Translations under genes and position numbers: made by a program
In this document: positions 1 to 49,660 of the stretch, piece after piece
How the letters are laid out: each line of letters starts with the position of its first letter
How positions within the stretch are numbered: position 1 is the first letter of the stretch
The notes under the pieces: generated by a model
The model's input: only the letters and a program-made list of their open reading frames with translations
The model's database searches: none
What the model was told of the DNA's origin: nothing
Source: Actinomycetes bacterium
GTDB lineage: Bacteria; Actinomycetota; Thermoleophilia; RBG-16-64-13
Assembly: GCA_021372435.1 (NCBI GenBank)
Contig: JAJFUK010000080.1
Span: 1 to 49,660 of the forward strand
Length of the DNA stretch: 49,660 nucleotides
Reading direction: 5' to 3'

Positions 1-29
1 GGCCGCGGCTTCATTTTGAAACGAGTTCT
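1..29 (+). repeat. Right end of a 165 bp inverted-terminal-repeat element (copy C, truncated by the window edge)
   Basis: These 29 bases match the last 29 bases of the full copy at 49229-49393 with one difference and end in the same GAGTTCT. Read in reverse complement they also match the left terminus of the full copies, so this is one inverted terminus. An imperfect hairpin (about 30-57) follows immediately, as a hairpin does at the other copies. The element lies upstream of the secD promoter and therefore outside the secD transcript. Confidence 0.85.
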
Positions 30-13563: not shown

Positions 13564-13878
13564 TCGCAAGGTATCGGCCGGCCGGCTGCCCGTCCTCAAG
13601 GTCGGCGGCCTTCCGGACGAATAAGCATGTTGACGGGCGCTTTGCCGGCGAGGGTCTGGACCGGAGGCGCATTGCCGGGCGGGAGGTGGTGTGCTACCCT
13701 CTGGGTGCTCGACCTTGTGCGTGATCTGGCTCAAACTTGAGCCAACACATTTCGCTTGGGAGGCTTGTTCGCCTGGACGGCGTATATCCTTTCGGGGACG
13801 GCCACCCACCTGCTTCGGCAGGTTCAAGCGCCCGCCAGACACGGCAAGGTGGAGCATTCTTATATAGGAAGGGAAGCG
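13564..13878 (+). other. Non-coding stretch between aspS and the lipoprotein gene
   Basis: This 315 nt stretch holds no convincing gene. Visible structure: a perfect 8 bp palindrome TGGCTCAA-ac-TTGAGCCA (13727-13744), an AGGC-ttgttc-GCCT stem (13761-13774), and a hairpin ACCTGC-TTCG-GCAGGT (13808-13823) with the very stable UUCG-type loop. These lie in order toward the lipoprotein start and may form a structured leader. No T-tract follows any of them, and no known riboswitch consensus (GEMM, TPP, cobalamin, SAM) was recognised. Confidence 0.5.
13727..13744. promoter_or_regulatory. Perfect palindrome, candidate operator
   Basis: TGGCTCAA and TTGAGCCA are perfect reverse complements separated by 2 nt. 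The size and symmetry fit a dimeric repressor site. A small bidirectional terminator is the alternative, but there is no T-tract. The binding protein is unknown. Confidence 0.35.
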
Positions 13879-14412: not shown

Positions 14413-14577
14413 AAGACTCGTTTCAAAATGAAGCTTCGTCGCAAGGGACGAGCCGGGCGGACGCGAGAGGAGGGAGCAGGGAGCGTGAATCGCGGCGCTA
14501 TTTGCGCGACCGAGGACGCGCTGTCGTGCCGTCGGGCGCGCATCGGGCGGTCACCGCTTCATTTTAGAAGGAGTTCT
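14413..14577 (+). repeat. 165 bp inverted-terminal-repeat element, copy A
   Basis: It is identical in length to copy B (49229-49393) and matches it at 140 of 165 positions with no gaps. The outer 19 positions at each end pair (17 of 19 here, one as a G-U). The interior can fold further: 46-53 with 127-134, a hairpin at 76-90 and a CGCG-type hairpin at 105-116 (element numbering). Substitutions between the copies show no third-codon bias in the shared open frame (10, 7 and 7 at codon positions 1, 2 and 3), so it is not protein-coding. Type: MITE-like element or structured RNA, undecided. Confidence 0.85.
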
Positions 14578-14600
14578 AAGGCCGGTTTTCCCGGCCTTTT
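14578..14600 (+). terminator. Intrinsic terminator abutting repeat copy A, 21 nt before mnmA
   Basis: AAGGCCGG (14578-14585) and CCGGCCTT (14591-14598) form an 8 bp stem with a 5 nt loop and end in TTTT. It begins at the first base after the repeat element. It would end transcripts from the lipoprotein gene, yet it leaves almost no room for an mnmA promoter, so it could instead act as an attenuator. Confidence 0.7.
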
Positions 14601-49228: not shown

Positions 49229-49393
49229 AAGACTCGTTTCAAGATGAAGCTCCGCCGCAAGGGACGAGCCGGGCGAGTGCGAGAGAAGGACGGAGGGAGC
49301 GTGAATAGCAGCGCTATTGGCGCGACCGAGGACGCGCTATCGCGCCGTCGGGCGCGCACTCGGCGGCCGCGGCTTCATTTTGAATCGAGTTCT
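49229..49393 (+). repeat. 165 bp inverted-terminal-repeat element, copy B
   Basis: It matches copy A (14413-14577) over the full 165 nt at 140 positions without gaps. Termini 4-22 and 144-162 pair at 18 of 19 positions with one G-U. The stem 46-53/127-134 is perfect here, and AATAGC-agc-GCTATT (76-90) forms an apical hairpin. The right end overlaps the last codons and stop of the purine nucleoside phosphorylase gene. A TGGGC-ac-GCCCA hairpin follows immediately. Same internal orientation as copies A and C. Confidence 0.85.
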
Positions 49394-49660
49394 TGGGCAC
49401 GCCCAGGCGAGTCCGCCGCGTCGGACGCAGCCTCCCTGCCGGATGACGTGGCCCAGGCGGCAAAAAGGGTCTCGACCGTCCGGGCGAGGGCTGCACCTGC
49501 GCGGGCGACCCCGGCCAGAACCTCGTCGTGAGTGGTATCCCCGGCATTGGCCACGACGGTCAGGACCGCCGCGCCCATCTTCTCATCGTGTGCGGCCCTG
49601 AGCTCACCGGCCGGCGACATGCTGACGGTATGCACGCCGAGAGTCCGCAACAGCGCGAGT
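49375..49660 (-). CDS. Purine nucleoside phosphorylase, C-terminal part (window edge)
   Basis: The 5' end lies beyond the window. The visible 94 residues match the end of trimeric purine nucleoside phosphorylases: LRTLGVHTVSMSPAGELRAA corresponds to the MS-x-x-x-E purine/ribose-binding segment, then VLTVVANAG and THDEVLAGVARAG. A tail of about 25 residues (from about TSSGREAASD) is beyond the usual fold. Its last codons and the TGA lie inside the right terminus of repeat copy B. It probably salvages purines by phosphorolysis. Confidence 0.75.
   Translation of the reverse strand, partial: LALLRTLGVHTVSMSPAGELRAAHDEKMGAAVLTVVANAGDTTHDEVLAGVARAGAALARTVETLFAAWATSSGREAASDAADSPGRAQELDSK

Follow-up and report, generated by a model that had tools for sequence, protein, structure and literature searches.

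What kind of element recurs between the genes of a 49,660-nucleotide stretch of DNA (henceforth the window) from an actinomycete of the class Thermoleophilia? The window corresponds to contig C59 in an assembly of 2.8 Mb and 197 contigs, and a preliminary description had noted in it two equally long copies of a 165 bp non-coding sequence, together with a third right end at positions 1-29. The gap-free alignment of 14413-14577 with 49229-49393 was borne out, at 85% identity, as was the right end at the window start, which has a complete counterpart on contig C44. Because the outer flank of the C44 copy (C44:112-282 of G000) equals the window start, we regard the two as the same copy. The three copies and their parts are located as follows.

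14413-14577, plus strand: copy 1 (core extent 14415-14576)
14415-14434, plus strand: copy 1, left terminal inverted repeat, GACTCGTTTCAAAATGAAGC
14470-14485, plus strand: copy 1, left strand of the conserved unpaired core, GAGGGAGCAGGGAGCG, a mutated form of AAGGACGCAGGGAGCG
14486-14506, plus strand: copy 1, apical hairpin region, the covarying stem of the family
14507-14518, plus strand: copy 1, right strand of the conserved core, CGACCGAGGACG
14556-14576, plus strand: copy 1, right terminal inverted repeat, GCTTCATTTTAGAAGGAGTTC
14577-14580, plus strand: copy 1, right-hand portion of the target motif, TAAG, facing CAAAA on the left, a decayed duplication
49229-49393, plus strand: copy 2 (core extent 49231-49392)
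49231-49250, plus strand: copy 2, left terminal inverted repeat
49286-49301, plus strand: copy 2, left strand of the conserved core, AAGGACGGAGGGAGCG
49323-49334, plus strand: copy 2, right strand of the conserved core, CGACCGAGGACG
49372-49392, plus strand: copy 2, right terminal inverted repeat
1-28, plus strand: right end of the third copy, truncated at the contig edge (terminal repeat at 8-28; complete at C44:112-282)

Copy 1 is flanked by the stop codon of an ORF without assigned function and by mnmA, and copy 2 lies upstream of a minus-strand DHH/CBS/PolyA-polymerase gene; the scanned genes adjoining the window copies are housekeeping genes. A 6S RNA (RF00013, 68.6 bits) is encoded at 13704-13859 on the plus strand, directly upstream of the copy 1 region. 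At the other end of the window, a minus-strand frame (49375-49659) terminates within the right terminal repeat of copy 2 (its product ending in AQELDSK), and the stop codon of that gene (AAATGA) apparently comes from the element.

The preliminary description had left room for a sequence confined to these places, which is not so. A blastn search with copy 1 returned 42 matches in the window's genome, two of them reverse matches inside copies, giving at least 40 separate copies that are 78-87% identical to copy 1 and mostly more than 90% identical to the consensus. The best E value, the query itself excepted, was 5e-54, and an 18-nt end motif matched 123 times (58+65) with up to three mismatches compared with zero matches for the reversed motif, so that a chance origin of the repeat is excluded. 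Within the same GTDB family 11 of 18 genomes carry the repeat, with no matches in the other seven, and the 4.6 Mb contig of Thermoleophilia bacterium FR_37 (henceforth G010) holds about 300 first-look candidate copies. A scan of about 85,000 species with a core pattern revealed 93 stretches, all titled actinobacteria and most of them Thermoleophilia, Gaiellaceae or unclassified Actinomycetota. A covariance model built from 44 diverse copies found matches in 131 of 299 sampled Thermoleophilia genomes, representing 59 of 114 genera, and the loci examined comprise 242 non-redundant copies. Outside the class, weaker matches to the model occurred in seven genomes from a sample of 396 actinobacterial genomes (families f13, f35 and f49); these have the same core, with entirely different ends and apical stems. 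Rfam 15 contained no credible match at gathering or permissive thresholds, so that the preliminary description, which had recognised no named family, holds for that collection and is not undercut by membership of a known RNA family. Searches of plasmid, phage and viral-contig collections likewise gave no match, and we did not meet the family in the literature searched.

When 156 copies are placed on a core tree, the genome of origin changes only 30 times; copies thus group by genome, a pattern like that left by lineage-specific amplification. Two copies from G011 (L121 and L124) share a 12-nt insertion at one and the same position on the core's 3' side and possibly form a separate sub-lineage. 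Single copies in two other Thermoleophilia genomes (L307 in G071 and L310 in G020) combine the same core with very different ends and apical stem, and could be remnants or another sub-family.

How is the element built? The preliminary description had reported inverted termini of about 20 nt. Terminal repeats are indeed present, but the inverted repeat is longer than that, the entire element of about 162 bp forming one palindrome. In a structure-free covariation analysis nearly all strong pairs of non-neighbouring positions fell on one diagonal (i+j=168), running from the ends (7-161) via the middle (57-111 and 58-110) to the apical stem (CG 52 and AT 35 at 77-91; GC 53 and AT 39 at 78-90). It follows that the element is a single, bulge-free imperfect palindrome over its full length. 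In the model-fitted alignment 94% of cells pair, compared with 35-43% when the partner is slid, and none of 500 shuffles reached the observed covariation scores. The stems enclose a nearly invariant core (ARGGACGCAGGRAGCG / CGACYGAGGACG) with near-invariant non-canonical loop positions (A63.A105, G65.G103, C66.A102, A67.G101, G70.A98 and A71.G97), the last two forming a tandem G.A.

A typical MITE has conserved ends and a drifting middle. This repeat reverses the pattern, a point against the MITE-like reading: its core is better conserved than its terminal repeats, mean column entropy rising from 0.27 bits in the core loop through 0.85 in the arms to 1.12 in the terminal repeats. ORFs running through the copies are overlapping frames without support, and conservation follows the palindrome rather than codons. 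Since the core and the covarying stems were kept while the terminal repeats diverged, the element has probably been under selection for single-strand folding, either as a transcript or as single-stranded DNA. On the plus strand of a structure-blind alignment of 48 copies, G.U combinations outnumber A.C combinations (204 versus 73; 36 versus 14 pairs) under a strand-symmetric selection rule, and a smaller excess appears in the family-level set (222 versus 124), both being counts over related and hence not independent copies. This excess suggests that the plus strand is the folding one; it is compatible with RNA and single-stranded DNA alike and does not tell them apart.

The flanks of the copies record how they came to their sites. 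They prefer a palindromic, CTNAG-like target, and the copies fall into two main end types, GAACTCG (the window's own) and CAGGCTG. Copies ending in AACTCG or AGCTCG (n=92) have flanks that agree in a single register, at the T and the middle base of TNA (z 6.5), the middle base matching in 71% of the GAACTCG type versus 33% expected, which indicates a 3-bp TNA duplication for this type. For AGGCTG-ended copies (n=66) the agreeing register is YTAR, with weaker agreement (z 2.6), and many target duplications have decayed. Direct evidence of insertion comes from G010, where complete copies are nested inside other copies at outer model position 60 (L241; also L202, L222 and L162) and both outer halves (positions 4-60 and 60-166) continue on either side of the inner copy. 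These nested copies are the empty-site evidence, and their junctions carry small changes; several of the junctions resemble one another and may derive from a single event. The same near-complete genome contains head-to-tail and nested arrays with repeated 56-nt left pieces (L162, L101, L103 and L245), made by repeated nested insertion and end-to-end insertion.

By simple ORF-based gene calls, most copies are intergenic and near gene 3' ends. A co-directional upstream gene has its 3' end at a median distance of 51 bp from the copy, an opposite downstream gene at 6 bp, and among the 119 cases with a gene end within 150 bp, the closest such end is a 3' end in 74. The same calls gave no orientation bias relative to the flanking genes (++ 36, -- 47, +- 27, -+ 20).

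A major question is which transposase moves such elements. From the alignment we had suspected frequent exchange of ends between copies. This was rejected, as the main end types need only two changes on the core-only tree and are, for the same reason, deep sub-families; mosaic copies are few (L173 and L229). G010 harbors 13 nearly identical copies (L313-L331) of a recently active insertion sequence (IS) of 1.43 kb, whose transposase comprises DUF772, DDE_Tnp_1 and DDE_Tnp_1_6, a make-up that we take to be IS1182-like; the assignment to IS1182 is by domain make-up. The ends of this IS are CAGGCTGCTGAAAAAG and CAGGCCGCTGAAATACC (described also as CAGGCTGCTGAA ends), and its insertions are mostly flanked by exact 4-bp YTAR duplications (TTAA/TTAA, CTAG/CTAG, TTAG/TTAG, CTAA/CTAA). 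G010 also has CAGGCTGTTGAA-ended repeats, and the CAGGCTGTTGAAG-ended repeats have their ends and YTAR target in common with the IS. These matching ends and targets within one genome make an IS1182-type element the most likely helper of the CAGGCTG sub-family. A second IS of this type, L071, has CTAG-GAGCCTGTCGG ends that resemble the AGCCTGTCGGG ends of other repeat copies; for AGCCTGTCGG, the match in ends to an autonomous element is a looser one. The larger transposase-bearing element with the same termini that the preliminary description had called for thus exists for the CAGGCTG sub-family, but did not turn up for the window's own GAACTCG type.

For the latter, no IS with GAACTCG ends (GAACTCGTTTC) was found in the 18 genomes of the GTDB family, and none of the PF01609, PF05598 and PF13340 transposases checked has such ends. 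The window's genome encodes no DUF772 transposase, neither of its two other DDE_Tnp_1 genes has matching ends, and none of the single GAACTCG ends read there is part of a repeated IS-sized element. Since no helper was found and the TNA register differs from YTAR, the GAACTCG type implies a different transposase, and we infer that it uses a related one. As contigs end in repeats, the helper IS could be hidden in the assembly gaps of the window's genome.

Taken together, the copies are short sequences without coding capacity, bounded by terminal inverted repeats and target-site duplications, and dispersed in large numbers at mostly intergenic sites with evidence of insertion, as MITEs are. They represent a new, class-wide MITE-like family whose kind is known and whose single conserved folded core, combined with several end and duplication types, is unusual. 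We consider it probable that this is an old family of non-autonomous elements of Thermoleophilia moved in trans by DDE transposases, with a core selected as a folded single strand. The mobilisation in trans that the preliminary description had proposed is supported by the copy number, the target-site duplications, the nested insertions and the resident IS of the CAGGCTG sub-family. A DDE transposase supplied by an IS would recognise the terminal repeats and insert the element at CTNAG-like sites, which often overlap stop codons in these GC-rich genomes, and would thereby duplicate TNA (GAACTCG-ended) or YTAR (CAGGCTG-ended); an IS1182-type element would serve the CAGGCTG sub-family, and the folded core may act in the element's own propagation. 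A bolder version, which we hold to be a long shot, is that the core, folded as non-coding RNA or single-stranded DNA, is itself selfish: it would act in the element's own mobilisation and be carried long-term by transposases that differ in ends and duplication lengths, a bacterial counterpart to the way SINEs depend on a structured core, with DDE transposases as the machinery.

Could the copies instead be primarily structured non-coding RNAs, or RNA elements of 3' UTRs, that serve the host and were only incidentally dispersed? The covarying stems, unmatched by any of the shuffles and sharply worse in slid registers, the near-invariant A.A, G.G, C.A and A.G positions with their tandem G.A, and the plus-strand excess of G.U over A.C in the structure-blind alignment all speak for an RNA, as do the many copies that directly follow stop codons. 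Yet the flanking genes are both co-directional in 36 cases and both opposite in 47, we noticed no conserved gene partner and no Rfam match, the G.U excess shrinks in the family-level set, and the dozens to hundreds of copies per genome, their insertion into one another and the target duplications also speak against it; we consider this reading unlikely. The structured RNA that the preliminary description had offered as the alternative to a MITE therefore survives as a possible additional layer (the covarying fold, the invariant non-canonical positions and the G.U excess), but not as a cis-acting RNA, given the lack of orientation bias.

A host DNA element, its core a protein-binding site for nucleoid or chromosome architecture, its palindrome a cruciform and its mobility incidental, strikes us as improbable. 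Bulge-free dyad symmetry along the entire length, a core sequence conserved whichever orientation the copies have, and two GGACGC motifs 42 bp apart in the alignment would suit it; strand-asymmetric pairing, by contrast, is unexpected for a cruciform. Moreover, nearly identical genomes of the same family lack the repeat (the seven of 18 without matches), which is therefore not essential.

IS200/IS605-type transposition leaves no target-site duplications. A REP/BIME-type element moved as a single-stranded hairpin by a Y1 (HUH) transposase such as RAYT would share the hairpin form between genes, the strand-asymmetric pairing and the head-to-tail arrays of G010, but it is largely refuted and very improbable, as Y1_Tnp (PF01797) genes are absent from all 18 family genomes while control genomes were positive, and target sites are duplicated. 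The palindrome is also ten times longer than in REP/BIME elements.

With the MITE-like reading preferred, known mobile repeats offer closer comparisons. ERIC and similar palindromic MITEs are likewise short, intergenic and largely palindromic with a conserved core, and PMC10969869 gives their copy numbers, tens to hundreds and very different from one genome to the next, as seen here. However, ERIC is unrelated in sequence and host group, whereas the present repeat unites several terminal-repeat sub-families and two duplication lengths around one core and has a likely helper IS for one of them. Correia elements of Neisseria are also intergenic MITEs with terminal inverted repeats and more than 100 copies, and RNase III can cleave their transcripts at these repeats (PMC10969869, passages on these elements). 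Unlike our repeat, they have another target and other ends, and those passages of PMC10969869 do not describe a nearly invariant non-canonical core. The IS1182 family, which includes IS1272, combines DUF772 and DDE_Tnp_1, and its G010 member matches one repeat sub-family in ends and YTAR target; the repeat, by contrast, has no gene and no sequence in common with that IS beyond the outer 12-20 bp. IS1272 leaves no duplications, but the G010 IS does. PMC5678879 describes stem-loops as the targets of IS1272 and the family as heterogeneous, which makes a link between an IS1182-type transposase and a hairpin plausible.

A repeat family absent from Rfam is thus carried by almost half of the genomes sampled from one bacterial class. 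The repeat breaks assemblies, contigs ending in its copies, and it supplies the 3' ends of genes. That its core is far better conserved than the ends a transposase recognises turns selection keeping a non-coding mobile element folded into a testable question.
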